The translations under genes and the position numbers were made by a program. Shown one piece after another: positions 699 through 13,632 of a stretch of DNA of 20,078 bases; positions within the stretch are counted from its first letter, which is position 1, and every line of letters begins with the position of its first letter. The stretch is from a virus, in the IMG/VR virus record IMGVR_UViG_3300027708_000348, positions 1 to 20,078 of that record; one strand, written 5' to 3'. The notes beneath the pieces are model-generated. The model ran no database searches. It was not told where the DNA came from and was given only the letters and a program-made list of their open reading frames with translations.

Positions 699-1430
699 AT
701 GAGTGCTGCTCCTGCTGCTGCTGCTAATAAAGTTTTACTTAAGAAGTCTTCTGTTGTAAGTAAAGTTCCACTGACGACTGACTTGGCATATGGTGAATTG
801 GCATTAAACTATGCTGATGGATTATTATATTATAAAAGCGCAAATAATGTAATACAATATTTCTCAGATAGTAATACTAGTGTAACATTAACTGGTACTC
901 AAACTTTAACGAATAAGACTTTAACTAGTCCTACAATTAATAATGCAATATTAACTGGCACTGTTACTGCTGGTGGTAGTGTTGGAACAAATGGACAAGT
1001 TTTAGCATCTACTGTAACTGGTGTTCAATGGGTTGACAGTGGTGCAGCAGTTGATCCAGTTACTACAATCACAAAGTCGTTGACTCTGACAACTGACTGG
1101 CAAAATACAGGAATTAGTTATACAGATTTAAGCACAGGGACATATCTAGTTCAGTTATATGCAAATGATACTGGTGCTGGTGGTTCTAATTCAAATGAGT
1201 ATTATTCGGGAACTATGAGTTGGTATGCTGGGGCAACAAATTCTTCAGTAGAATTACCAACTGATGAGATTGTACTACACAGAGCAGGACAGTCTAGTGA
1301 GGGTGGTCTATATTTAAGAACATTTAGATCAACTTCTGGAAGTGGTGCAAATTTAAAATTGCAGATTTACGCAAACTTGGCTAACTCATCAGCATCGAAT
1401 TATGTGTTTAAGTTTAGAAAAATGATCTAA
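699..1430 (+). CDS. Tail-fibre-like protein with GELAL N-terminal module and distinct C-terminal tip
   Basis: This 243-residue protein begins after an AGGA ribosome site (TTTTTAGGAATATAG). The N-terminal part (about 10-48) has KSSVVSKVPLTTDLAYGELAL followed by DGLLYYK. It resembles the widespread phage-fibre N-terminal pattern in which a GEL-(A/T)-(L/I) strand is followed by DG-x-L-Y. Next come TLTNKTLTSP (69-78), LTGTVTAGG (85-93) and GQVLASTVTGVQWV (99-112). The last about 120 residues form a different, non-repetitive domain with EYYSGTMSWYAG, LPTDEIVLHRAG and a basic end YVFKFRKMI. This looks like a folded fibre tip and is similar to tips I associate with marine T4-like phages (from memory, not searched). 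The middle module is shared with the gene at 3301-3822. Role inferred: structural fibre or receptor-binding subunit. Confidence 0.8.
   Translation: MSAAPAAAANKVLLKKSSVVSKVPLTTDLAYGELALNYADGLLYYKSANNVIQYFSDSNTSVTLTGTQTLTNKTLTSPTINNAILTGTVTAGGSVGTNGQVLASTVTGVQWVDSGAAVDPVTTITKSLTLTTDWQNTGISYTDLSTGTYLVQLYANDTGAGGSNSNEYYSGTMSWYAGATNSSVELPTDEIVLHRAGQSSEGGLYLRTFRSTSGSGANLKLQIYANLANSSASNYVFKFRKMI
951..977 (+). repeat. Direct repeat B, copy 1 (LTGTVTAGG block)
   Basis: These 27 bases match 3511-3537 with one mismatch and encode LTGTVTAGG in both fibre genes. In both proteins the block is followed by GQ-(V/I)-L and a Q-W, so the match is part of a longer shared segment. Confidence 0.75.
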
Positions 1431-1438
1431 CATAAATA
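1431..1438 (+). promoter_or_regulatory. Late-promoter-like motif CATAAATA
   Basis: The octamer matches the T4 late promoter TATAAATA at seven of eight positions. It lies directly after the stop at 1430 and 21 bases before the ATG at 1460. The same heptamer ATAAATA recurs before five other structural genes here, which supports a regulatory role. No start-site data are available. Confidence 0.5.
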
Positions 1439-1459
1439 GAAATATAAGGGGAGTTTTAG

Positions 1460-3247
1460 ATGGCATTTAAAATAAAAGACGGGTTGCGAATTGGCACCAC
1501 AGATATATTCAACACTTCTGCTCAAGTAGTTGGTACTGGTGTAGCATTTGCAGGTTCGACTAGCGGAGCGACTACTCTTCTTGCAACTGCAGTAGCTGGC
1601 ACAACGTCATTAATACTACCAGCTGCATCTGATACTTTAGTTGGTAAAGCAACTACTGATACTCTAACAAATAAAACAATCGCTGCTGGTTCAAATACTA
1701 TCAGTGGATTAACTAATACTAATCTATCTGGTACTGCTGGTATTACTAATGCCAACTTAGCGAATAGTTCTGTTACTATTGGTTCAACAGCAATCTCACT
1801 TGGTGCTTCTAGCACTACTATCGCTGGTCTTACATCAATTGATGCTACTGTTGGTTCCACTTCTTTCTTTGCTACTCCAACTTCACCAGCCTTATTTGGT
1901 GCTGGTACTGCTATTACTATTGGTGCGGCAACTGGTTCAACTACTGTTAATAATAGTTTAATAGTTGCTGGAAATTTAACAGTTAATGGATCAGTCACCG
2001 CAGTTAATAGTAATACATTAACTGTTGATGATAAAAATATTGAATTAGGATCAGTTACAGCTGTCACTCCAACTGGTAACATTAGTGCTGGTTCAGCAGT
2101 TGTTACAAATCTTTCAAGTACTGCAAATATTATTGTTGGCTCCGCAGTTAGTTCGCTAACTGGTGCGGGCACTGTCACATTACCAGCAAGCACTACAGTT
2201 GCTTCTGTCGATAGTTCAACTCAAATTACTCTAAGCGCCACATTAACTGGTACTAGTTCTCAGGCTGGCGCAACATTAAACATTGGTGGTGCGACAGACG
2301 TTACTGCTGCAGGTGGTGGTATTACGCTTAAAGGCACTAGTGATCATAGTATTACTTGGAGTGTAGCAAACGGCTGGACATCAACTGAAGATATTAACAT
2401 TGCTACTGGTAAGATTTATAGAATTAACGGTACATCAGTTCTAAATTCAACAACTCTTGGTTCTGGAGTTACTAGTTCTTCACTTACTTCTGTTGGTACA
2501 ATTGGTACTGGTGTTTGGCAGGGTACATTAATTGGTGCTACATATGGTGGTACTGGTGTAAACAATGGTTCCAATACTATCACAGTTGGTGGTAATGTTT
2601 CAATTGCAAATGCGTTCACTACTAGCGGTGCGTTTGGTTTAACACTTACTGCAACTGCAACTACCAATGCTACTCTACCAGCAGGAACTACTACTTTATT
2701 AGCTACTACTGGATCTGGTTCAAGTTTAACATTCGGTACAGGTAGTTTATCATTATCAAGTAATTTAACTACCACTGGTGGATTTACTACAAGTTTAACA
2801 CAATCTGCCAACGTAACATTAGCATTACCAGGTGCAAATGGCACACTGGCTACTCTTGCTGGTACAGAAACGCTAACTAATAAAACAATTGGTACTACTC
2901 TTACTTTTGCTACAGCTACACCTACTACAATTTCTACAGAAGCTGTTGTTACAGCTACAGTTGCATCTGCCTCAGTAGCTGATGTTGATACATGGCCAAT
3001 AGCAACTTATAGAGCAGTAAAATATTTGGTCACTATTAAACAAGGTACTAACTATCAGGTAAGTGAAATTATAGTTATCCATGATGGTACTACTACATAC
3101 ATGACTGAATATGGAGTTATAGAAACCAATGGTGTATTGGGAGCATTTACTTCTGATATATCTGCAACAAATGCTAGATTGCGTGTAACTATGGGTTCTG
3201 CAACTTCTTCAACAATAAATGTTAGACGAACTCTGATGGTCGTTTAA
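1460..3247 (+). CDS. Large tail-fibre-like protein with repeated shaft modules
   Basis: This 595-residue protein has a strong ribosome site (AAGGGGAG) nine or so bases before ATG. The N-terminus MAFKIKDGLRIG closely matches that of the gene at 3301 and may be a shared attachment tag. TLTNKTI follows (68-74). The long middle is Thr/Ser/Gly/Ala-rich shaft sequence with NSNTLTVDDKNIELGSV, GGGITLKGTSDHSITW, the GVWQGTLIGATYGGTG block near 351 and a second TLTNKT near 470. The last about 89 residues, from ADVDTWPIATYR (about 507), form a non-repetitive domain (VKYLVTIKQG, VSEIIVIHDGTTTYMTEYG, ending VRRTLMVV). This is a tip-like domain that I associate with fibres of marine T4-like phages. Role inferred: virion fibre. 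The strong bias for ACT, GGT and GCT leaves long stop-free frames on the opposite strand (1522-2193, 2416-2844), which are not genes. Confidence 0.85.
   Translation: MAFKIKDGLRIGTTDIFNTSAQVVGTGVAFAGSTSGATTLLATAVAGTTSLILPAASDTLVGKATTDTLTNKTIAAGSNTISGLTNTNLSGTAGITNANLANSSVTIGSTAISLGASSTTIAGLTSIDATVGSTSFFATPTSPALFGAGTAITIGAATGSTTVNNSLIVAGNLTVNGSVTAVNSNTLTVDDKNIELGSVTAVTPTGNISAGSAVVTNLSSTANIIVGSAVSSLTGAGTVTLPASTTVASVDSSTQITLSATLTGTSSQAGATLNIGGATDVTAAGGGITLKGTSDHSITWSVANGWTSTEDINIATGKIYRINGTSVLNSTTLGSGVTSSSLTSVGTIGTGVWQGTLIGATYGGTGVNNGSNTITVGGNVSIANAFTTSGAFGLTLTATATTNATLPAGTTTLLATTGSGSSLTFGTGSLSLSSNLTTTGGFTTSLTQSANVTLALPGANGTLATLAGTETLTNKTIGTTLTFATATPTTISTEAVVTATVASASVADVDTWPIATYRAVKYLVTIKQGTNYQVSEIIVIHDGTTTYMTEYGVIETNGVLGAFTSDISATNARLRVTMGSATSSTINVRRTLMVV
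2531..2557 (+). repeat. Direct repeat A, copy 2
   Basis: Partner of 225-251 with one mismatch. It encodes IGATYGGTG at about residue 358 of the large fibre protein. Confidence 0.75.
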
Positions 3248-3261
3248 TAGTGTTAGTATGG

Positions 3262-3276
3262 GGACTATCGTAGTCC
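3262..3276 (+). terminator. Short perfect hairpin after the large fibre gene
   Basis: GGACTA (3262-3267) and TAGTCC (3271-3276) are perfect complements around a three-base loop. Two further G-U pairs are possible outside (3260-3261 with 3277-3278). It is followed by TTATTT and lies 14 bases after the stop of the 595-residue gene. It could be a weak terminator or a processing or stability element. The U-tract is poor, so termination is uncertain. Confidence 0.4.
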
Positions 3277-3278
3277 TT

Positions 3279-3302
3279 ATTTCGTGGAAAATGAAACGAA
3301 AT
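3279..3302 (+). promoter_or_regulatory. Hairpin covering the start codon of the next fibre gene
   Basis: ATTTCGT (3279-3285) is the exact complement of ACGAAAT (3296-3302), leaving a ten-base loop that contains the only candidate ribosome site, GGAAAA (3286-3291). The first two bases of the start codon (3301-3302) are inside the stem. Two outer G-U pairs could extend it. If formed in mRNA it would hinder translation of the gene at 3301. It stands directly after the hairpin at 3262-3276. Confidence 0.4.
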
Positions 3303-3822
3303 GGCGAACGAATTTAAAATCAAGAATGGGTTATCCATTGGTGGCACCACCTCTGGAGTTACAATCCTTAAATCAAGTGCAGCTGCTACTGGTACATTAA
3401 CGCTACCAGCTACAACTGACACGTTGGTTGGTCTGGCCACGACAGATACACTAACCAACAAAACCCTTACATCTCCGACAGTTAATTCTGCTACTGCAAA
3501 TAATTTAACATTAACTGGTACTGTTACTGCTGGTGGTGGAACAGGCACAAGTGGACAAATTCTTTCTTCCACAGGATCTGGTATTCAGTGGATAACCCAA
3601 GCAACTAGTAATTCTGTTTTTATTGCCAATGCTAGAAGCGATCTCGGATATGTATATGATGCTACTGTCACAATTATAGAAGACCTAGGCACACCAATTG
3701 GTACCACAACAATATCGTATGACTTAGCTGTTCTTAAAGTTGATGGTATTGTTTCATTAGACAATTTGGATAGTTCTGTTAAATCAGACTATCTTGCTCA
3801 AGCAATTATTTTTGGATTCTAA
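3301..3822 (+). CDS. Tail-fibre-like protein, 173 residues
   Basis: The start is chosen because MANEFKIKNGLSIGG matches the N-terminus of the 595-residue fibre (MAFKIKDGLRIG). The ribosome site is weak (GGAAAA) and is embedded in a hairpin. After the N-terminal tag come TDTLVGLATTDTLTNKTLTSP, LTGTVTAGG and GQILSSTGSGIQWI (85-98), all shared with other fibre genes in this window. The C-terminal about 75 residues are different, with DLGYVYDATVTIIEDLG and the end YLAQAIIFGF. This end resembles the AMAIVFGA end of the gene at 6728. Role inferred: a short fibre or fibre accessory subunit. Which structure it belongs to cannot be told from sequence. Confidence 0.8.
   Translation: MANEFKIKNGLSIGGTTSGVTILKSSAAATGTLTLPATTDTLVGLATTDTLTNKTLTSPTVNSATANNLTLTGTVTAGGGTGTSGQILSSTGSGIQWITQATSNSVFIANARSDLGYVYDATVTIIEDLGTPIGTTTISYDLAVLKVDGIVSLDNLDSSVKSDYLAQAIIFGF
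3511..3537 (+). repeat. Direct repeat B, copy 2
   Basis: Partner of 951-977 with one mismatch over 27 bases. It encodes LTGTVTAGG in the 173-residue fibre protein. Confidence 0.75.
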
Positions 3823-3831
3823 GGATATAAA

Positions 3832-6705
3832 ATGGCACGTCAGTTAGTTGAGAAATATATTTTCACCCCAGGAGTTGCGAACGTAGGCAACTTAAAAATT
3901 CCTGGCAAGATTGAATTAAATCAGTTATTAATTATTGCCAATAAAACCACTCAAGAGAACATTTATGCTCTTGGCGATACAACACGTAATGCATATTCAT
4001 TAACTTATGATGCAACAGATAGTACTACTTTTTATTCACCAGATGATGGTGTAACTACTATTGTATTCGCCAGAGATACATCGGCAATGTCTGCAAATGA
4101 TAAGATTGCTGTTTATACTGATGCTCCAAAGAACGTGGGTAATATTATTCGTCCATATGCGTTTGGTGTTGATGCGATTGAAAGACAACGTGTTTCCAGC
4201 CCACAAGCATTGATTGATGCTGACTTTGAGTATGGACTACAACCAACTAAGTGGCAGAACTATACTGATATGCGTAATATTCCAGGTGTATTCGAAAAAC
4301 CTGGACTTGATTTACCAATCACTGCAGTTACGACTGATGGAACAACCCCATCTCTTATTACTGTTACTACTGGTTCTGCTCATGGCATGGCTGCTGGAGA
4401 TCCAATTATTATTTACGGTTTAGGTATTGTTAGCACCTACGCTCGTGCTGAAGGCGCATTTGTTTGCGCATCTGCTTCTGGTACTACTCTGACATATTAT
4501 GCTAAAGGTAACGTAGGTTCCAATGGTAATTCATTATTTACTTCATCAACCTATGGTCGTAAGGCTGGATTCTTTTCTGGAGCAAACTTACCAATAGCAA
4601 GCATTGCAAGTGATGCTGCATCACCATCAGTAATTACAGTAACAACTTCTAATAACCATGGTCTAGTTCCTGGAGCAACTTTACTTTGTGTTGCTACTTC
4701 TGTTGGTACTAACCATGGATTAATGACTGGTGCAGTTTACGCAGAAACAGTTCCATCTCCAACTACCTTTACCTTTACTGCCAGAACTGGTGGTGCAGTG
4801 GCAAACGCATCTATTACGGCAAATATATATACTCGTTCTGACGCATTTGTTTTGCATCGCCCATTTGATGGTGGTGTTCAACTTGGTACATTCAATCCTA
4901 GTCATGGTGCTTCAGTTTCTCGTCAAACTAAAAAATACATGCGTTACCAATCTGGTAAAGGATTGCTTTGGACGTCAGGTGTATTATTTAATCCAGTTCT
5001 TAACTTAGACCAAATCTCTGCATCAAGCACTTCTATTGGTGCAACTATTACAGTAACAACAGAAAATGACCATGGTCTACAAGCTGGTGCAACAGTTCTT
5101 ATCGCAGGTGTTGTAACTGCTGGATATAATGGAACATATGTTGTTAATGCTGTTACAAACGAAAATACATTTACGTATATAGCAACTATTGCCCCAGCAT
5201 TAACAAATGCTGTTATTACAAATCTTCCACGTGTAACAATTAAAACATGGCATGGTGCCACAGTTCGTGTTGGTCCATTCGATGATCAAAATGGATTATA
5301 TTGGGAATTTGATGGATCAGAATTAGCAGTTGGTAAGCGTTCTGGTACATATCAGTTGTCTGGAACAATTGCTGTCAATGCTGCATCTCAGGCAGTCACA
5401 GGAACAACAACTCGTTTCACTCAGCAATTAAAATCTGGTGATCGTATTATTATTCGTGGTATGACTTACATGGTTAACTCTATCACAAGCGATACAGCAT
5501 TAACTATTAATCCAGAATTCCGTGGCGTCAATAACGTATCTGGTGTTAAAATTGCAGCAATTATTGAAACTCGTATTCCACAATCTCAGTTTAATGTGGA
5601 TAAAATTGATGGTACTGGTTTCTCTGGTTATAATATTAACCTAAACAAGATGCAGATGTTGGGTATTTCCTCAACATGGTATGGTGCTGGTTTTATTGAC
5701 TACATGGTACGTGGTGTAGACGGTAACATGGTTCTTGTTCATCGTATGAAACAAAACAACGTAAACGATGAAGCATACATGCGTACAGGTAACGCTGCTG
5801 TTCGTTATCAGGCTATTAATGAATCCGCACGTGATCGTCTTGCAGTAGCAATGACAAACAGTGATACATCAATGACTCTTGCGGATGCAAGCAGATTCCC
5901 AAATCCAGGTGCTACTTATCCTGCAGCTGTTATGTGTGAGGGTGAGATTATTCGATATACCACCAAAACAGGAAACGTACTTTCTGGTTTAACTCGTGGT
6001 TCTTCAATCTCACAGTTTAGTGGTGGACAGGCAAGAACATTTACTGGAACTGCTGCAGCAGCACATGCTTTAGGTAATGGATATAACTCAGTAACTCTTG
6101 TAAGTTGTACTGCTGCACCAGTTGTTAATCACTGGGGTTCTTCTTATATCATGGATGGTGGATATGATCAAGATCGTGGTTACTTCTTTAACTATCCAAA
6201 AGTTAATTTTGCTTTGACTAATGGACAAGTTTTAACTGCATTCTTTGTTCGTCTTGCACCTTCTGTTAGTAACTCAGTAACAGGAACTCTTGGTGATCGT
6301 GAACTTATTAATCGTTCACAATTACTTCTGCAAAGATTACAAGTTCAGTCTGACCAATCTGTTCAGGTTTATGGTATTTTAAATCCAGGTAATATTGATG
6401 CATCATCATTAACTTGGAATACTTTGAATCAAACATCATTCGGATCGCAACCTTCTTTTGCTCAAATTTCAACTAGCAATACCACTGCTGCAACTCCAGG
6501 TGAACAGATTTTTGGTACGTTAGCACCTCCAGGTGGTTTGAATGAAGTTGACTTAACTGCACTTAAAGAATTAACAAATTCGTCTATTGGTGGTTTTAGT
6601 AACTATCCAGATGGTCCAGATAACTTAGCGATTGTGGTTCAAAATCTTACAACAAATGCTGCACGTGTAAGTCTTAACTTATTCTGGTCAGAAGCGCAAG
6701 CATAA
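3832..6705 (+). CDS. Large virion structural protein (957 residues), unassigned
   Basis: The gene starts nine bases after the previous stop with an AGGA ribosome site. The N-terminus (LVEKYIFTPGVANVGNLKIP) and the GLQPTKWQNYTDMRNIPGVFEK region (135-156) are of a type I associate with large virion proteins of marine T4-like phages. Three similar beta modules follow, each with ITVTT-x-x-x-x-HG-(L/M)-x-x-G (176, 268, 406). They resemble the FCCH-like or HGL repeats common in phage structural proteins. A further beta segment (about 511-575) has LKSGDRIIIRG and ITSDTALTI. Then come GISSTWYGAGFIDYMVRGVDG (611-631), a MTLADASRFP segment (681-690) and a non-repetitive C-terminus. No catalytic motif is seen. 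It sits among fibre genes upstream of the neck genes, so a baseplate or fibre-linked role is likely but not shown. Confidence 0.85.
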   Translation: MARQLVEKYIFTPGVANVGNLKIPGKIELNQLLIIANKTTQENIYALGDTTRNAYSLTYDATDSTTFYSPDDGVTTIVFARDTSAMSANDKIAVYTDAPKNVGNIIRPYAFGVDAIERQRVSSPQALIDADFEYGLQPTKWQNYTDMRNIPGVFEKPGLDLPITAVTTDGTTPSLITVTTGSAHGMAAGDPIIIYGLGIVSTYARAEGAFVCASASGTTLTYYAKGNVGSNGNSLFTSSTYGRKAGFFSGANLPIASIASDAASPSVITVTTSNNHGLVPGATLLCVATSVGTNHGLMTGAVYAETVPSPTTFTFTARTGGAVANASITANIYTRSDAFVLHRPFDGGVQLGTFNPSHGASVSRQTKKYMRYQSGKGLLWTSGVLFNPVLNLDQISASSTSIGATITVTTENDHGLQAGATVLIAGVVTAGYNGTYVVNAVTNENTFTYIATIAPALTNAVITNLPRVTIKTWHGATVRVGPFDDQNGLYWEFDGSELAVGKRSGTYQLSGTIAVNAASQAVTGTTTRFTQQLKSGDRIIIRGMTYMVNSITSDTALTINPEFRGVNNVSGVKIAAIIETRIPQSQFNVDKIDGTGFSGYNINLNKMQMLGISSTWYGAGFIDYMVRGVDGNMVLVHRMKQNNVNDEAYMRTGNAAVRYQAINESARDRLAVAMTNSDTSMTLADASRFPNPGATYPAAVMCEGEIIRYTTKTGNVLSGLTRGSSISQFSGGQARTFTGTAAAAHALGNGYNSVTLVSCTAAPVVNHWGSSYIMDGGYDQDRGYFFNYPKVNFALTNGQVLTAFFVRLAPSVSNSVTGTLGDRELINRSQLLLQRLQVQSDQSVQVYGILNPGNIDASSLTWNTLNQTSFGSQPSFAQISTSNTTAATPGEQIFGTLAPPGGLNEVDLTALKELTNSSIGGFSNYPDGPDNLAIVVQNLTTNAARVSLNLFWSEAQA

Positions 6706-6708
6706 ATA
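6701..6708 (+). promoter_or_regulatory. Late-promoter-like motif CATAAATA
   Basis: The motif overlaps the TAA stop (6703-6705) of the 957-residue gene and lies 19 bases before the ATG at 6728. It is identical to the octamers at 1431 and 11396, and seven of its eight bases match T4 TATAAATA. Confidence 0.5.
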
Positions 6709-6727
6709 TACAAATTAGAGGACAATT

Positions 6728-7156
6728 ATGGCAACCCAAGTACAATTTCGAAGAGGAACCACAGTACAGAACAATGCGTTTACTGGTGCGCAGGGCGAAA
6801 TTACAATTGATACAGACTTAAAAACCCTGCGTCTTCATGATGGTACTACTGCTGGTGGTGGTTCCACTATTGTCACTCTTGCTGGTACTCAAACCCTAAC
6901 CAACAAAACTTTGAGCACTGGATCTACATGGACAGGTTCTGCAGTTGGTCTGGCATATGGTGGTACTGGATCTTCTTTAACCGCAACTGCTGGTGCTGTT
7001 CCTTATTCTACTGCTTCTGGTTTAGCTCTTAGTGCTGTTGGAACTACTGGTCAAGTACTAACATCCGCTGGTGCTGGTGCTCCAACATGGGCAACTCCAA
7101 CAGTCTACGCAACTACTGGTAAATCTATTGCTATGGCAATAGTATTTGGAGCATAA
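6728..7156 (+). CDS. Short tail fibre with Mtd-like N-terminal domain
   Basis: This 142-residue protein follows an AGAGGA ribosome site. Residues 1-45 (MATQVQFRRGTT, AFTGAQGEITIDTD, LKTLRLHDGTTAGG) closely follow the N-terminal domain of the Bordetella phage major tropism determinant (Mtd), which has QFRGGTT, GEITVDTD-like and HDGATAGG elements. This is from memory of the family, not a search. It continues with TLTNKTL (56-62), LAYGGTG (75-81), GQVLTSAGAGAPTWATP (108-124) and ends GKSIAMAIVFGA. The Mtd C-lectin receptor domain is absent, so this is a short fibre with the anchoring module only. The tail end is shared in style with the gene at 3301 (QAIIFGF). It is the last gene before gp13, where T4 has fibritin. 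Attachment or accessory fibre role inferred. Confidence 0.8.
   Translation: MATQVQFRRGTTVQNNAFTGAQGEITIDTDLKTLRLHDGTTAGGGSTIVTLAGTQTLTNKTLSTGSTWTGSAVGLAYGGTGSSLTATAGAVPYSTASGLALSAVGTTGQVLTSAGAGAPTWATPTVYATTGKSIAMAIVFGA
7125..7142 (+). promoter_or_regulatory. Perfect 7-bp hairpin just before the gp13 ribosome site
   Basis: CTATTGC (7125-7131) pairs exactly with GCAATAG (7136-7142) around the loop TATG. It lies in the last codons of the short fibre gene and ends five bases before the GGAG ribosome site (7148-7151) of gp13. It could mark a transcript boundary or influence gp13 initiation. It may also be chance, because the bases also encode SIAMAI. Confidence 0.3.
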
Positions 7157-7157
7157 T

Positions 7158-8117
7158 ATGGCAATCCCAATAACTAGAGAAGGTTTGAAGCAATATTGCC
7201 TACGAGATTTAGGTGCGCCTGTACTAGAAATTAACGTAGACGATGATCAGCTAGAAGATCGTATTGATCAGTCGTTAGAATTCTGGCGTCTCTACCACTA
7301 TGATGGTATTGAGAAACTTTACATGAAGCAGCAGATTCGTGCTTCTGAGATTGTTATTCAACAATCAATTGCTCAAACTTTTAAATTAGAAGATATTGTT
7401 AGAGGTCAAATTTCTGGTGCCACCGCAAAAGTATCTAAAGAAAATCTTCGTTCATCAACAGGAACTTTACTTCTTGTAAGAAATATTACTGGTACGTTCC
7501 AAGCTGGTGAAACTATTATCGCTGACAGTGGTCAAACAGCAACTCTTGTATCTGCTACTAAACATGAGTACGATAACAAATATATTGAGATAGATGATTG
7601 GGTATATGGCATCACTCGTGTGTTACCTTTCTCTCAAGCATCTTCCTCAAAGAATCTATTTGATTTGCAGTATCAGTTGCGTTTAAACGACTTATATGAT
7701 TTATCATCAACATCAATCGTTTACTTTAAAACTGTAATGAGTCACTTGGCCATGCTCGACTTAGAGTTAAATGGTTATCCGCTATATCGTTTTAATCGTT
7801 TACAAAATCGTTTGTACTTAGATATCAATTGGGAAACTGACATTCCACTTGGAGACTTCATTGTTGTTGAAGCATATCGTGCGCTAAACCCAGCAGAGTT
7901 TACAAAAGTATGGAATGAGAACTGGTTGAAAAGATACGTAACTGCGCAATTTAAGCGTCAATGGGGAACCAATCTTAAGAAATTCTCTGGCATTCAACTT
8001 CCTGGTGGTGTAACACTTGATGGTGATAAACTTTACGATGAAGCCACCACAGAAATAAAAGATCTCGAAGACGAACTACAAAATAAATCTGCACCTCTTG
8101 AATTTTTTCTTGGGTAA
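7158..8117 (+). CDS. 13: Neck protein gp13 (head completion)
   Basis: The 319-residue product is close in length to T4 gp13 (309). ATG 7158 is preferred over the in-frame TTG at 7146 because GGAG (7148-7151) lies six bases before it and it avoids an 11-base overlap with the fibre gene. The N-terminus (MAIPITREGLKQYCLRDLGA, VDDDQLEDRIDQSLEFW) is typical of the marine T4-like gp13 family. The protein closes the filled head and helps form the neck with gp14. Residues about 81-134 carry an extra beta-rich segment (GQISGATAKV, GTFQAGETI, SGQTATLVSA). After it the family sequence resumes with YIEIDDWVYGITRVLPF and YDLSSTSIVYFKTVMSHLAMLDLEL. Gp14 follows after three bases, so co-translation is likely. 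Confidence 0.9.
   Translation: MAIPITREGLKQYCLRDLGAPVLEINVDDDQLEDRIDQSLEFWRLYHYDGIEKLYMKQQIRASEIVIQQSIAQTFKLEDIVRGQISGATAKVSKENLRSSTGTLLLVRNITGTFQAGETIIADSGQTATLVSATKHEYDNKYIEIDDWVYGITRVLPFSQASSSKNLFDLQYQLRLNDLYDLSSTSIVYFKTVMSHLAMLDLELNGYPLYRFNRLQNRLYLDINWETDIPLGDFIVVEAYRALNPAEFTKVWNENWLKRYVTAQFKRQWGTNLKKFSGIQLPGGVTLDGDKLYDEATTEIKDLEDELQNKSAPLEFFLG
7398..7559 (+). other. Inserted beta-rich module in gp13
   Basis: This stretch encodes two short similar units: GQISGATAKV followed by TLLLVRNITGTFQAGETI, then SGQTATLVSA. The alternation of SGATA-V and FQ-GE-I resembles small beta modules found in many phage structural proteins. It interrupts the otherwise alpha-helical, T4-like gp13 sequence. 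The boundaries are approximate. Confidence 0.5.
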
Positions 8118-8120
8118 TTA

Positions 8121-9050
8121 ATGCCAACCAATGTTTATTTTACGCAGGGAACTAAGAACGAACAGTACTTAGTTGAAGACCTGATCATAGAATCGTTAAA
8201 GATATTTGGTCAGGAGATGTTTTACATCCCAAGAACATTGGTTTCAAAAGATGAAATTCTTGGCGAAGATCGTCTATCAAAATTTACTTCATCATTCCCA
8301 ATTGAAATGTATTTTGAGAACGTAGATTCTTTTGCTGGTCAGGGTGCGTTTATTCAGAAATTTGGTTTAATGATGGAGCAATCTGCTACGCTGGTAGTTG
8401 CTCGTAGACGCTGGGAACAATTAGTTGGTCGTTATGGAGTTACTAATATTCCTACTCGTCCGAATGAAGGCGATCTACTTTATTTCCCGTTGACTAAAGG
8501 TTTGTTTGAAATCAAATTCGTACAACACCAAGATCCATTTTATCAGCTTGGTAAACTTTATGTTTACAAACTACAGATTGAACTCTTTCAATATGCTTCT
8601 GAAGCAATTGATACTGGTATTCCTTCTATTGATGCGTTTGAAACACTAAAAACATTCAATACAAATACAACTCGTACACCATATGGTGAGGTAACTTCTA
8701 TTACAGTTAGTAATCAGGGAGTTGGTTATACTTCTGTTCCAACAGTATCATTCACTGATGGTGGTGGTTCTGGTGCAGCTGCTACTGCTGTACGTGGAAC
8801 TGGAGCGAATATAGGTAAAATTATTCGTGTTGACATTACAGATCCAGGAATTGGTTATTCAACTGCACCAACTGTAGTATTTACTGGTGGAGGATTTAGT
8901 TCTACTGCAGTAGCGACTTCATCAATCTCAGCCAACGTAGATAAACCAGAATCATTCGGTGATAACAACAAGTTTAAAACAGAAGCACAGGATGTATTGT
9001 TTAGTGTAACAAATCCATTCGGTGAAGTAGATAAAGAGAATAATCCATAA
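8121..9050 (+). CDS. 14: Neck protein gp14 (head completion)
   Basis: The 309-residue product is longer than T4 gp14 (256). Residues 1-170 match the family pattern: VYFTQGTKNEQYLVEDLIIE, GQEMFYIPRTL, DRLSKF and the region IEMYFENVDSFAG. The C-terminus FGDNNKFKTEAQDVLF-SVTNPFGEV (279-302) also fits. The extra length is a Gly-rich insert at about 189-270 made of two repeats with GVGYTSVPTVSFTDGGGSGA and GIGYSTAPTVVFTGGG. This repeat type is also in the tail sheath gene downstream. Gp14 forms the neck ring with gp13 and couples head to tail. It overlaps gp15 by one base (TAATG), which suggests translational coupling. No strong ribosome site is seen before its own start, only three bases after gp13. 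Confidence 0.9.
   Translation: MPTNVYFTQGTKNEQYLVEDLIIESLKIFGQEMFYIPRTLVSKDEILGEDRLSKFTSSFPIEMYFENVDSFAGQGAFIQKFGLMMEQSATLVVARRRWEQLVGRYGVTNIPTRPNEGDLLYFPLTKGLFEIKFVQHQDPFYQLGKLYVYKLQIELFQYASEAIDTGIPSIDAFETLKTFNTNTTRTPYGEVTSITVSNQGVGYTSVPTVSFTDGGGSGAAATAVRGTGANIGKIIRVDITDPGIGYSTAPTVVFTGGGFSSTAVATSSISANVDKPESFGDNNKFKTEAQDVLFSVTNPFGEVDKENNP
8685..8930 (+). repeat. Gly-rich GxGY double repeat inserted in gp14
   Basis: Two units of about 40 residues share the pattern I-x-V-x-(N/D)-x-G-x-GY-x-x-x-PTV-x-F-x-GGG followed by Ala-rich sequence. The four units in gp18 at 11764-12243 follow the same pattern. The flanking sequence is normal gp14, so this is an insertion. Confidence 0.75.
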
Positions 9051-9796
9051 TGTTAAACAATAAAGTTTTCTATCATGGAATTATACGCAAATGTATCGTA
9101 GGATTTGGTACTCTATTCAGTGACATCTATATCGATCGTAAAGAAGGTGACTCTGTTACTGGAACTACTATTCAACGTCTTCAAATCCCACTTGCCTATG
9201 CACCTAAAGAAAAATGGATTGTTCGTCTAGACCAAGATCCAAATCTAGAGAATCACACTTACATATCACTACCACGTATGTCTTTTGAGATTACTGGTTA
9301 TACTTATGATGCAGCAAGAAAAACTGCTCGCATGCAAAGGATTACTTGCGGTGATACTAGCACTTCAATGTCATACATGTATGCTCCAGTGCCGTATAAC
9401 ATAGACATATCTTTATACATTCTCACTAAAACTCAAGAAGATGCTATGCAGATTGTTGAACAGATTCTTCCTACCTTTACTCCAGAATATACGTTATCAG
9501 TTAATGCTATTCCAGAGATGAATGTTACACAAGACATTCCAGTTATCTTAAATGGTATTACAGTTCAAGATGAGTATGATGGTGATTTTCAAACACGTCG
9601 TTTCGTTACACATACTTTGACATTTACGTTAAAGACAAACCTATATGGTAATGTTAATACTCAAGGTGTTATTGATCAGGTTACTGCTAATATTGGTCAG
9701 AACGAAAACTTTACTAACCCAAATAGAATTTATGCAGCAGAAGGTAATCCTATCACCGCAACTGTTGCGAATGAAAATTGGACGTTTAATTTATAA
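9050..9796 (+). CDS. 15: Tail completion and sheath stabiliser gp15
   Basis: The 248-residue product fits T4 gp15 (272). The N-terminus VFYHGIIRKCIVGFGTLFSD, the block RLQIPLAYAPKEKWIVRLDQ and the diagnostic RMSFEITGYTYDAARKTARM (about 83-102) are family hallmarks. The C-terminal half has VILNGITVQDEYDGDFQTRR and a TFTLKTNLYG strand. In T4, gp15 forms the hexameric ring that ends the tail and binds the neck. Its start overlaps the gp14 stop by one base, and its stop overlaps the gp17 start by one base. No gene lies between it and the large terminase, where T4 has gp16. Confidence 0.92.
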   Translation: MLNNKVFYHGIIRKCIVGFGTLFSDIYIDRKEGDSVTGTTIQRLQIPLAYAPKEKWIVRLDQDPNLENHTYISLPRMSFEITGYTYDAARKTARMQRITCGDTSTSMSYMYAPVPYNIDISLYILTKTQEDAMQIVEQILPTFTPEYTLSVNAIPEMNVTQDIPVILNGITVQDEYDGDFQTRRFVTHTLTFTLKTNLYGNVNTQGVIDQVTANIGQNENFTNPNRIYAAEGNPITATVANENWTFNL

Positions 9797-11376
9797 TGGC
9801 ACAAATTTATAATGCTAATGTAAACTTAAAAGCAGCTGGGGTAAAGGTTCAATTTACTCCAGAACAGGTTCAGGAATATCTAAAGTGTGCGGCTAGTCCA
9901 ATTTACTTTATTGAAACATATTGTAAAATTATTTCACTTGATCATGGTTTAATTGATTTTAAACTTTATCCATGTCAGGTCAATAAAGTAAATATAATTC
10001 ATAATAATCGTAAGGTTATTCTTATGGAAGGTCGTCAGCAGGGTAAGACGACTACATCGGCAGCTTATATTCTTTGGTATACTTTATTCCAAGAATCTAA
10101 AACTGTTGCAATCCTTGCAAACAAAGCAACTGCTGCTCGTGAGGTTCTACATCGTTATCAATTGATGTATGAGAATTTACCTCACTGGTTACAACAGGGT
10201 GTTATTACTTGGAATAAAGGTGACGTTGAATTAGAAAACAAGTCCCTTGTATTTACTGCAGCAACAACTGCTTCTGGTATTCGTGGTAAATCTGTTAACT
10301 TGCTTTATGTTGATGAGACTGCCATTATTCCAAACACAGTTGCTGAGCAATTCTTTACGTCAGTCTACCCAACTATTTCAGCTGGTGATACTACAAAGAT
10401 TCTATTAAGTTCTACACCTCTTGGTTATAATCACTTCTGGAAATTCTGGAATGATGCTGAGAATAAGAGAAATGATTTCGTTCCATTGTTTATTCCTTAT
10501 TGGGAAATTCCTGGACGTGATGAGAAATGGGCAGAAGCACAACGTCGTCAGCTTGGTGATTTAAAGTATAATCAAGAGGTACTATGTAAATTCCTTGGTT
10601 CTAGTTTAACTCTAATCAATGCTGATACTATCGCCAAGATGTCTTTGGCTCAAACAGTTTATAGTAAAGATGGTTTAGATATCTACGAAAAACCACAAAG
10701 AGGTCATACGTATGTTATCGTAGCTGATACTGCTAAAGGTGTTGGTGGTGACTACTCTGCCTTTACTATTATGGATATAACTGAAGTCCCGTATAAACTG
10801 ATCGGGAAATATAGAAGCAATATAATTAGTCCGCTTCTATATCCAAACTTCATTTATGAGGTAGGTAAACAATATAATTATGCATATGTTCTGGTAGAGA
10901 TAAATTCTTCCGAGCAGGTGCCTCATATTCTTTACCAAGAACTAGAATATGAAAACATACTTTTCGTAAATAGAACTACAGGGTCTCAAGTTGTTTCTGG
11001 TGGTTTCGGTGGAGGTAAAACTCAACTCGGAGTCAATACCGATAAGAAAGTTAAAAGAATCGGTTGTCATAACTTCAAATCCTTAGTGGAAGAAAATAAA
11101 TTAATAATACAAGACGCAGATACGATATCGGAAATTTCAACCTTCATCGAAACCAAAGGTACATATATGGCGGATGATGGTTATCATGATGACTTAGTGA
11201 TGAGTTTGGTTCTGTTTAGTTGGCTTACTACCAACCCTTATTTTAAAGACCTAAATAATATTAACTTGAGAGAAATAATGTATAAGAAACAGATGCAAGC
11301 GATCGAGGATGAACTTACGCCATTTGGGGTTTATGACGATGGGAACCATGAAGAAAAAGCACCCCTGAACTTTTAA
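9796..11376 (+). CDS. 17: Large terminase subunit gp17 (packaging ATPase/nuclease)
   Basis: This is the DNA-packaging motor and headful nuclease that acts at the portal. In order, the sequence shows Walker A GRQQGKTT (79-86), Walker B LLYVDE (169-174), coupling motif SSTP (205-208), and the RNase-H-like nuclease acidic residues D311 in VIVADTAKG, E368 in LVEIN and D465/D466 in YHDD. These correspond to T4 D401, E458 and D542. At 526 residues it is shorter than T4 gp17 (610). Most of the difference is before Walker A, which is at about 161-167 in T4, so the N-terminal extension is absent. The start is set by overlap with the gp15 stop (TAATG). All active-site residues appear intact. A partner small terminase is not adjacent. 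Confidence 0.96.
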   Translation: MAQIYNANVNLKAAGVKVQFTPEQVQEYLKCAASPIYFIETYCKIISLDHGLIDFKLYPCQVNKVNIIHNNRKVILMEGRQQGKTTTSAAYILWYTLFQESKTVAILANKATAAREVLHRYQLMYENLPHWLQQGVITWNKGDVELENKSLVFTAATTASGIRGKSVNLLYVDETAIIPNTVAEQFFTSVYPTISAGDTTKILLSSTPLGYNHFWKFWNDAENKRNDFVPLFIPYWEIPGRDEKWAEAQRRQLGDLKYNQEVLCKFLGSSLTLINADTIAKMSLAQTVYSKDGLDIYEKPQRGHTYVIVADTAKGVGGDYSAFTIMDITEVPYKLIGKYRSNIISPLLYPNFIYEVGKQYNYAYVLVEINSSEQVPHILYQELEYENILFVNRTTGSQVVSGGFGGGKTQLGVNTDKKVKRIGCHNFKSLVEENKLIIQDADTISEISTFIETKGTYMADDGYHDDLVMSLVLFSWLTTNPYFKDLNNINLREIMYKKQMQAIEDELTPFGVYDDGNHEEKAPLNF

Positions 11377-11395
11377 AATTAGAAATGTGGGTTTT

Positions 11396-11403
11396 CATAA
11401 ATA
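11396..11403 (+). promoter_or_regulatory. Late-promoter-like motif CATAAATA before the tail sheath
   Basis: It lies in the 93-base gap between gp17 and gp18, the longest in the window, and 66 bases before the gp18 ATG. It has the same octamer as at 1431 and 6701. The rest of the gap is AT-rich, with an A-run and a strong AAGGAG ribosome site just before 11470. No small gene was recognised in the gap. Confidence 0.55.
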
Positions 11404-11469
11404 AATTAGTGATGACCATGCCCATGATTGTCAAAAAAATAACATGTTAATGTAATAAGGAGAATTACA

Positions 11470-13632
11470 ATGCCTTTTCAACTAAGTCCTGGCGTTGCAG
11501 TCGTAGAAAAAGACTTTACCTCTATCGTTCCAGCAGTAGCTACCTCAACTGGTGGCTTTGCAGGTGCTTTTGTGTGGGGTCCAGTTCTAGATCCAGTAAC
11601 TATCAATTCTGAAAACAATCTAGTTTCAAGATTTGGTAAACCAAATGACGACAATGCAACTTCGTTTTTCACTGCAGCAAACTTCCTATCTTATGCAAAC
11701 GATCTTTTAGTCGTTCGTGCTGATACGGTTGATCATAGAAATGCTGTTTCAACTAAAACTGGTGGTATCACTGCAGTAACTGTGGCTGGTACTAACTCTG
11801 GTTATTCTTCAACTGCTGCTGCTCCTACTATTACTGTTGGTGCTCCACAAATTACTGGTGGAACTCAAGCAATTCTAACTGCAGTTCTTTCTGGTGGTGC
11901 AATTACTGCTGTTGCAGTTTCTAGTGGTGGTACTGGCTACTCTGGTACTCCAACTGTAGTTATCACTTCTTCTGGTGGTGGTTCTGGTGCTACATTTAGC
12001 GTAACTGTTGTTGCTAACGCAATCACTGCTGTTACAGTTCTAACTGGTGGTTCTGGTTACAAAGGTACTGTTACTGCTGCATTCTCTGGTGGTGGTGGTT
12101 CTGGTGCTTCTGCTGGTGCAGTTACTGTTGGCACTTCATCTATTAGCGTAACTCTTACTAATCCTGGTACTGGTTATACTTCTGCTCCAACTGCTACACT
12201 TAGCGGTACTGCTACTCTTACACCAGTAGTTACTGTTGGTGGTATTAAGATTAACAATGAAGCTGCATACACTACAACCTACATTAATGGTGCTGGTGTT
12301 GTTGGTGAATTTGCTGCTAAGTATCCAGGTGCTCTAGGTAACTCTATCGCTGTTCACATGGCTGATGCTGCAACTTATTCTACTTGGACTTACAAGACTG
12401 AATTTGATGCAATCCCAGGCACATCCAACTACGCAACTAATGCTGGTGGATCAAATGATGAAATGCACATAATTATTATTGATACACTTGGACAGTGGAC
12501 TGGTACTATCGGTTCTGTACTAGAAAAGTATGCTTTTGTTTCTAAAGGTTCTGATGTTAAGAAAGATGATGGAACAAACAACTATTACCGTGATGTAATA
12601 AACAATCGTTCTAAGTATGTATGGTGGATGGATCATCCAACTGTTGGTACTAACTGGGGCAATGCTGCTCTTGGTACTGCGTATCTTTCTTTAGGTACTC
12701 CATACGCATCTGCACTAACTGGTGGTCTTGATGATGTTATTCCAACTGATGGTCAGCTAATGACTGCTTGGGCAATCTTCTCTGACGATAGTCAGTATGA
12801 TGTTCGTCTATTGCCAGTTGGTAAAGCGTCTGCAACAGTTGCTTCTAGCGTAATTGCTATTGCTGAATCACGTGCTGATTGCGTTGTGTTTGTTTCTCCA
12901 CAGAGCACAAGCACTGGTGATTATATTGTTGCTTCTGGTAGCGATGCTACTAATGCAATCATTGCTTACCGTAATGCACTACCAAGTTCTTCATACGCTG
13001 TTATGGATTCTGGTTACAAATATCAATATGATCGTTACAATGACAGATACCGTTGGGTTCCATTGAACGGCGATATTGCTGGTCTATGCGCTCGTACTGA
13101 CTATCAACAAGACCCATGGTTCTCTCCAGGTGGTTTGAATCGTGGTCAGATTAAGAACGTAGTTAAGTTGGCAGTAAATCCATCTAAGACTGATCGTGAC
13201 AATCTTTACAAAGCTGGCGTTAACCCAGTTGTTACATTCCCAGGACAAGGTACTGTGATGTTCGGCGATAAGACTCTATTGGCTAAGCCAAGTGCGTTTG
13301 ATCGTATCAACGTGCGTCGTTTGTTTATCGTTCTTGAGAAATCTATCGCAACTGCTGCTAAATTCCAGTTGTTCGAATTCAACGACAGCTTTACTCGTGC
13401 ACAATTTAAGAATTTGGTTGAACCATTCTTACGTGATGTACAAGGTCGTCGTGGTATTACTGACTTCGTTGTTAAGTGCGATAATACAAATAACACTGGT
13501 GAGGTTATCGATAGTAACAACTTTGTTGCTGATATCTTCATTAAGCCAAATCGTTCTATCAACTTTATTACTCTCAATTTCGTCGCTGCTCGATCTTCTG
13601 TATCGTTCACTGAAATTGGCGGTGGTCAATAA
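11470..13632 (+). CDS. 18: Tail sheath protein gp18
   Basis: The 720-residue product is longer than T4 gp18 (659). The N-terminus LSPGVAVVEKDFTSIVPAVA, the VWGPVLDPVTINSE segment and FFTAANFLSYANDLLVVRA (67-85) are typical of contractile sheath proteins. So is the C-terminal half with WVPLNGDIAGLCARTD, PWFSPGGLNRG, DRINVRRLFIVLEKSI and the closing FNDSFTRAQF domain. Residues about 99-258 are an insert of four Gly-rich GxGY repeats that interrupts the N-terminal part. It probably forms a surface domain on the sheath. A strong AAGGAG ribosome site precedes ATG. Role: polymerises around the gp19 tube and contracts on infection. Confidence 0.95.
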   Translation: MPFQLSPGVAVVEKDFTSIVPAVATSTGGFAGAFVWGPVLDPVTINSENNLVSRFGKPNDDNATSFFTAANFLSYANDLLVVRADTVDHRNAVSTKTGGITAVTVAGTNSGYSSTAAAPTITVGAPQITGGTQAILTAVLSGGAITAVAVSSGGTGYSGTPTVVITSSGGGSGATFSVTVVANAITAVTVLTGGSGYKGTVTAAFSGGGGSGASAGAVTVGTSSISVTLTNPGTGYTSAPTATLSGTATLTPVVTVGGIKINNEAAYTTTYINGAGVVGEFAAKYPGALGNSIAVHMADAATYSTWTYKTEFDAIPGTSNYATNAGGSNDEMHIIIIDTLGQWTGTIGSVLEKYAFVSKGSDVKKDDGTNNYYRDVINNRSKYVWWMDHPTVGTNWGNAALGTAYLSLGTPYASALTGGLDDVIPTDGQLMTAWAIFSDDSQYDVRLLPVGKASATVASSVIAIAESRADCVVFVSPQSTSTGDYIVASGSDATNAIIAYRNALPSSSYAVMDSGYKYQYDRYNDRYRWVPLNGDIAGLCARTDYQQDPWFSPGGLNRGQIKNVVKLAVNPSKTDRDNLYKAGVNPVVTFPGQGTVMFGDKTLLAKPSAFDRINVRRLFIVLEKSIATAAKFQLFEFNDSFTRAQFKNLVEPFLRDVQGRRGITDFVVKCDNTNNTGEVIDSNNFVADIFIKPNRSINFITLNFVAARSSVSFTEIGGGQ
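11764..12243 (+). repeat. Four GxGY Gly-rich repeats inserted in the tail sheath
   Basis: Units start near residues 99, 143, 183 and 222 of gp18. Each has I-(T/S)-(A/V)-V-x-(V/L) followed by GYSS, GTGYSGTPTVVIT, GSGYKGTVTAAF or GTGYTSAPTATL, with GGG-SGA linkers. The DNA is dominated by GGT, ACT and GCT codons. The same unit type occurs twice in gp14. Confidence 0.8.

Follow-up and report, generated by a model that had tools for sequence, protein, structure and literature searches.

The neck protein gp14 and the tail sheath protein gp18 of a freshwater-type T4-like virus of bacteria carry inserts built from the same repeated module, a unit of about 40 residues with a GxGY motif. The virus is record IMGVR_UViG_3300027708_000348, and the 20,078-base stretch analysed here (the window) is its entire genome as recorded. 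We show that the two inserts are mobile and hypervariable, and that the one in gp18 is replaced as a cassette between sister phages. The sharing of the module by the two genes is old, with no recent exchange between them. The inserts are old between genes and young, i.e. fast-changing, within each gene.

Results

The same module in two T4-family proteins

The initial annotation had spotted six units by eye. We built a hidden Markov model (HMM) from them and iterated it over relatives drawn from IMG/VR (labelled L001 upward). The resulting profile bore out the claim of two units in gp14 and four in gp18, at the following positions of the window:

8121..9050, plus strand: gp14, neck protein (head closure Hc2), 309 residues (PF11649, phrog_460, T4 gp14 structures)
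8676..8936, plus strand: two-unit GxGY insert in gp14, residues 186-272 (87 residues; iterated HMM units)
8685..8792, plus strand: gp14 unit 1, residues 189-224 (HMM E=4e-16)
8814..8918, plus strand: gp14 unit 2, residues 232-266 (HMM E=1e-12)
11470..13632, plus strand: gp18, tail sheath protein, 720 residues (PF04984, PF17482, PF22671, phrog_23, T4 gp18 structure)
11755..12255, plus strand: four-unit GxGY insert in gp18, residues 96-262 (167 residues; HMM units), in the T4 domain I slot
11761..11880, plus strand: gp18 unit 1, residues 98-137, with the degenerate motif NSGY and without a strict GxGY (HMM E=3e-07)
11896..12006, plus strand: gp18 unit 2, residues 143-179 (HMM E=7e-09)
12016..12126, plus strand: gp18 unit 3, residues 183-219 (HMM E=1e-08)
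12142..12234, plus strand: gp18 unit 4, residues 225-255 (HMM E=5e-07)

All units thus fall inside the span of 8685-12243 originally given for the repeat, but gp15 and gp17, which lie within that span, carry none. A profile made from the gp14 units of relatives scored 28.6 bits on the gp18 of the window, where the best of 1000 shuffled inserts reached -3.9, and the reciprocal profile from the gp18 units of relatives scored 63.3 bits on gp14 (best shuffle 6.2). Scores so far above the shuffle maxima mean that the likeness between gp14 and gp18 units exceeds what shared composition would produce.

Outside the inserts both proteins are T4 family members, as had been supposed. The conserved N-terminal domain of gp14 matches the T4-like neck family PF11649 with 119.3 bits (cut-off 25, E=2.6e-34), the protein matches phrog_460 (E=6.5e-86), and the best fold matches of its model are T4 gp14 structures. 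The T4-like sheath core of gp18 is recognised by PF04984, PF17482 and PF22671, all above cut-off, and by phrog_23 (E=2.5e-128); its model superposes on the T4 gp18M structure with Z=31.4 and a root-mean-square deviation of 2.6 across 339 residues. The suggestion that both proteins exceed their T4 counterparts by the size of the insert does not hold. The excess is 53 residues for gp14 (309 vs 256) with an insert of 87, and 61 for gp18 (720 vs 659) with an insert of 167, because T4 has other sequence at both sites, which in gp18 is the 91-residue domain I.

The flanks of the gp18 insert align with T4 gp18 at about residues 82-97 and from 185 onward, which places it in the position of Gp18_dom_I, after the N-terminal part of domain III and before domain II. 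In T4 this domain (residues 98-188) is an outward-protruding insertion, free of contacts between gp18 copies, to which the long tail fibres bind when retracted (PMC3004832). By homology, the gp18 insert occupies an exposed slot, and across relatives it is dispensable. AlphaFold2 (63 sequences) models it with a local confidence score (pLDDT) of about 90-95 and about three strands per unit. It holds 3 charged residues in 167; the GxGY units in general are almost uncharged and devoid of tryptophan, and their sole conserved aromatic residue is the tyrosine of the motif. The gp14 insert lies after a conserved helix and before the conserved C-terminal tail (the last 30-odd residues), and its units are modelled with pLDDT of about 86-92. 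The equivalent region of T4 gp14 (178-256) is disordered until the tail joins, and then touches gp15 (PMC12270204).

An old sharing between the two genes

Similar units in gp14 and gp18 of one genome could arise if units had recently been copied from one gene to the other, and short DNA stretches are indeed alike (84% over 43 nucleotides). Among 297 units, 292 have as nearest neighbour in other genomes a unit of the same gene and the same position. The identity between gp14 and gp18 units (0.369) is equal within and between genomes, and the number of identical codons is near that expected from codon use. Taken together, this grouping by gene and position, the equal identities and the codon counts argue for the absence of recent exchange, and we give almost no credence to copying inside the window genome.

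Gain, loss and unit number among relatives

Alignment of gp14 and gp18 with those of relatives revealed genomes without inserts or with other numbers of units. Had the inserts been an ancient fixed feature, all relatives should carry them at one site and deeply diverged; this pattern was not found. The gp18 slot is 3-10 residues long in relatives without units (L057, whose core is 72% identical, L131, L133, L142-144, L151 and others). Two units bring it to about 90 residues, three to 130 (L108), four, as in the window, to about 170, and some eight to about 340. In a few relatives other, unrelated modules are added to the GxGY units or replace them. We classified slots by length and HMM count and placed the classes on a FastTree phylogeny of the gp18 core without the insert, with the root not inferred. 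This requires at least 17 state changes, and for several classes the well-supported branches alone require five or more. Units also occur elsewhere in sheaths: in X1 and Moby, two units sit in another loop (residues 240-315), and in L162 and L163 they are farther down the chain than the domain I slot.

In gp14 the unit number is 0, 2 or 4, and the insert is absent in L146, L133, L122 and L119. The combination of two units in gp14 and four in gp18 is kept over a large clade. Inserts are mostly present in both genes. Strict coupling was considered and is ruled out by L057 (two units in gp14, none in gp18) and L122 (none in gp14, three scored units in gp18).

A different module was seen in some of these sheaths. 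Residues 408-495 of L005 gp18 form an unrelated 88-residue module (LGGTGTI.GYAT type) that is absent in its close relative L006; modules of this type break up GxGY arrays in L068, L105, L117 and others.

Divergence and recombination of the inserts

The sister phages L007 and L012 are 98% identical over 7 kb. Outside the inserts their shared 7.1 kb differ at 131 of 6354 positions (~2%), to be compared with 30/261 (11%, P=5e-13) in the gp14 insert and 143/489 (29%, P=6e-96) in the gp18 insert. Over 150-base segments, divergence is 25-33% inside the gp18 insert among the segments listed and peaks at 10% elsewhere. An excess in both inserts was found again in L011/L013, L068/L053, L026/L053, L105/L053 and L020/L013, of which the pairs sharing L053 or L013 are not independent, and an excess in the gp18 insert in L051/L116 and L140/L137. 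A few pairs show no insert excess at the nucleotide level.

In five of ten pairs, divergence at fourfold silent sites is also higher in the gp18 insert (L007/L012, L011/L013, L051/L116, L140/L137 and L020/L013, P from 7e-4 to 3e-11). Raised silent divergence points to the import of diverged copies, since relaxed constraint on the protein does not by itself predict it. Recombination leaves another sign in the window itself, where gp18 differs from that of L008 less within the insert (4/126 fourfold differences) than in the remainder of the gene (41/226, P=2e-5). In gp14 the excess consists mainly of amino acid changes (e.g. 20/92 vs 3/216). The ratio of nonsynonymous to synonymous rates (dN/dS) is 0.4-0.95 in inserts, compared with 0.2-0.3 in gp18, and stays below 1. 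Together with the confidently predicted fold, this indicates a maintained domain.

Wider distribution of the module

The larger contigs of relatives carry units in a gp8-type wedge protein (phrog_438, 938-988 residues, 8-9 scored units), in a gp53-type wedge protein (PF11246, two units) and in further open reading frames (ORFs). When a phage collection was searched with the two-unit module of gp14, the best matches were annotated tail sheaths of unrelated 44-kb phages: Xanthomonas phages FoX1-FoX5, M29 and Murka, and Pseudomonas phages PPpW-3 and Persinger. The gp14 module is 57-60% identical to the sheath modules of FoX1 and PPpW-3 over about 80 residues including the linker, which makes it a FoX-type module, and only about 40% identical to the gp18 of its own genome.

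A scan of bacterial genomes, with a single protein carrying one two-unit module as query, returned sheath genes with Pfam sheath domains in records of Flavobacterium, Rhizobium, Metarhizobium and Paracoccus (prophage-type), and large secreted or surface-type proteins with Big_7, Laminin_G_3, PATR or T9SS (secretion-tail) domains. In the proteins tested, the unit falls outside every Pfam and NCBIfam model, and in PHROGs it appears only as cross-matches between unrelated families.

Some further occurrences were recorded. A lambda-like tail tube protein (PF16460) in a Pseudomonas entomophila record (L258) has two GxGY units, and so do two bacterial CrtC-type lipocalins (L273 and L288), an unexpected location for a phage-tail module. 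A neighbouring but distinct module (NRLYTVT.AGTT...APTH) occurs in wedge proteins (L207:3608-6553, L209:1229-4039) and in one sheath array (L115 gp18); it weakly resembles carbohydrate-binding module (CBM) family 5/12, below cut-off (E=0.0045-0.067).

Genomic context

The window spans a T4-like structural block with gp13, gp14, gp15, gp17, gp18, gp19, gp20 and beyond. Around the two genes discussed above lie:

7146-8117: gp13
9050-9796: gp15
9796-11376: gp17 (large terminase)

At 9796 the end of gp15 is the start of gp17, with no ORF between them for the small terminase gp16, unlike HTVC008M, Mosig and T4. An insert in gp13 (approximately 7374-7560; phrog_358 match, residues 70-183) has a repeat of a different type, with the motif SGAT...F-AGE, a kind also present in cyanophage gp14. 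A virion protein of 957 residues (3832-6705) contains three ITVTT...HGL modules weakly resembling the E1_FCCH domain, and a TLTNKTL motif is common to four fibre-like ORFs (starts 699, 1460, 3301 and 6728; span 699-7156).

Discussion

Our results give a mixed answer to the proposal, made when this DNA was first annotated, of a mobile surface module. The exposed slot in gp18, the gains and losses, the replacement of cassettes and the presence in sheaths of unrelated phages all agree with it; recent movement between gp14 and gp18 does not. The idea was thus right in outline and wrong on the route: the module is an old one in exposed slots, which is swapped and diversified among relatives.

What might such a module do? 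Fast swapping and reshuffling between close relatives suggest that it probably meets something variable outside the virus. We propose that this unnamed beta module, set into exposed slots of the tail proteins, forms a coat touching a variable external partner, most likely through low-affinity adhesion to host polymers, and we would give this proposal in its entirety an even chance. The module is small, mostly uncharged, with three strands per unit, and usually paired. In gp18 it is plugged into the outward slot of T4 domain I, so that the array would stud the sheath. In gp14 it sits in the C-terminal arm, past the barrel and before the end by which T4 gp14 reaches gp15, and the pair would ring the neck. 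Both inserts diversify several times faster than the genes that host them, in gp18 partly via diverged copies imported at the insert borders, and would act as a coat in contact with something variable outside the particle, e.g. the host surface. By analogy with what has been proposed for phage immunoglobulin-like (Ig-like) domains (PMC9230969, PMC10385173), weak adhesion to host surface polymers is the reading we hold most likely. We infer the outward position of the gp14 insert, the ligand and the benefit for adsorption. One might speculate further that gp14 and gp18 cassettes recombine fast because both contact the same variable host partner, in which case the motor formed by the sheath would also be a recognition surface; this paired coat is a tentative idea, possible in our view but one we would not bet on.

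Several points weigh against this explanation. We know of no ligand of GxGY units. The units themselves, with no tryptophan, 3/167 charged residues and one conserved aromatic, give no direct support to adhesion or to the glycan binding suggested at first annotation, and that aromatic, the tyrosine of the motif, may be structural. As a neck component, gp14 is remote from the first contact with the host, and the junction of its insert to the body is uncertain in the AlphaFold2 model (pLDDT about 63-66 near residues 175-190). The silent excess in gp18 is absent or marginal in the other five of the ten pairs, four of them non-significant, and that in gp14 is weak: the direction is the same in five of six pairs, with P<0.05 in one. 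The raised dN/dS of inserts fits weak constraint too, and certain close relatives are without the gp14 insert or the gp18 insert.

Other explanations share part of this evidence. The modules might touch neighbouring sheath or neck subunits and thereby stiffen the tail or set its spacing, with no binding to the host. A stabilising role has been suggested for additional sheath domains at large, based on phage 812 (PMC9230969), the inserts are folded and constrained, and the wedge, sheath, neck and tail tube proteins in which the module is present are all structural. Yet T4 domain I lacks gp18-gp18 contacts (PMC3004832). Furthermore, unit number ranges from 0 to about 8 and cassettes are 29% diverged between phages whose surrounding sheath is nearly identical, which is not what one would expect of an interface fitted to its neighbours. 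We therefore find a stabilising role unlikely. The inserts could instead be nearly neutral decoration, if the slots accept any folded beta module and recombination shuffles these without much benefit. That certain relatives do without inserts, that the slot accepts unrelated modules too and that dN/dS is high for a structural gene would suit this explanation. It is nevertheless doubtful, given that dN/dS remains below 1, that two gp14 and four gp18 units persist for long across a large clade, that the module has spread into unrelated phages and that a larger protein at many copies per particle has a cost. Finally, the modules might vary to escape recognition or trapping, by vesicles or host surface layers, rather than to bind. 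The joint hypervariability of the two inserts and their almost uncharged surface (3/167) are compatible with this, but we know of no recognition system acting on the sheaths of free-living aquatic phages and regard such an escape as a long shot. Low-affinity adhesion to host polymers stays our preferred reading.

Sheath and neck proteins usually count as conserved components of a machine. Between L007 and L012, no site in 7 kb is more divergent than the exposed slots of these two proteins. This calls for caution in marker-gene and recruitment analyses based on gp18 or gp14. It also offers a testable surface for host contact besides the tail fibres. More generally, a domain family unnamed in the libraries that we searched is common to proteins of the neck, sheath, tail tube and baseplate in unrelated phages and to secreted proteins of bacteria.

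Comparison with known systems

The closest counterpart by position is T4 gp18 domain I (PF22639, residues 98-188), which occupies the same sheath slot, faces outward and is also missing in some relatives. It has about 90 residues and six strands, and two GxGY units would match both figures. Yet the sequences differ: the gp18 of the window has no match to PF22639 up to E=0.1 (T4 gp18 scores 126 bits), units and domain I find each other by HMM in neither direction, and domain I is charged (22/91) whereas the gp18 insert is not (3/167). A profile comparison aligned only 22-23 columns around GSNY (P=0.0026-0.039, with no control for multiple tests). The favoured unit numbers of 2, 4 and about 8, to which L108 with three is an exception, the six strands per pair and the six-stranded barrel of T4 domain I suggest that a pair of units may form one barrel, of which domain I might be a diverged version. 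Fold searches with whole models returned the sheath and neck cores and so carry no information on the fold of the units themselves. In the PDB, a profile search turned up only one weak match (E=0.31), the phage tailspike Dpo31/Dpo36 (28lx, 8ck1), whose residues 445-507 include two short GxGY stretches; we take it as a lead only.

Phage Ig-like domains (in Hoc, tail tube and fibres; PMC10385173, and Fraser et al. 2006 as cited in PMC9230969) resemble the module in being small beta modules that sit on many unrelated virion proteins and are exchanged horizontally. Weak binding to host surfaces has been attributed to them. The GxGY unit differs from them by its size of about 40 residues, its three strands, its richness in glycine, serine and threonine and its lack of a name in Pfam or NCBIfam. 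Neither gp14 nor gp18 matches an Ig-like Pfam family (Big, Ig or related) up to E=0.1, and no CBM 5/12 or other carbohydrate-binding family matches the units in the window proteins. FoX-type sheath modules, like that of gp14, consist of two GxGY units with the linker GTGA(N/D)-G(K/R)V. Unlike the virus studied here, FoX-type phages are non-T4 phages of about 44 kb, with the module at residues 148-229 of a 479-residue sheath, in a loop other than the domain I slot.

The additional sheath domains surveyed earlier (PMC9230969) are, like the gp18 insert, inserted in the conserved sheath core, and adhesion or stability was proposed for them. They have mainly Ig-like folds; the word "repeat" is absent from the main text of that survey, in which we found nothing on how the domains vary between sister phages or on a neck protein with the same module. 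Hence, the general kind was known, both as additional beta domains of sheaths and as Ig-like modules of virions, and what is new is an unnamed module, the joint hypervariability of neck and sheath, and a near match in the sheaths of unrelated phages.

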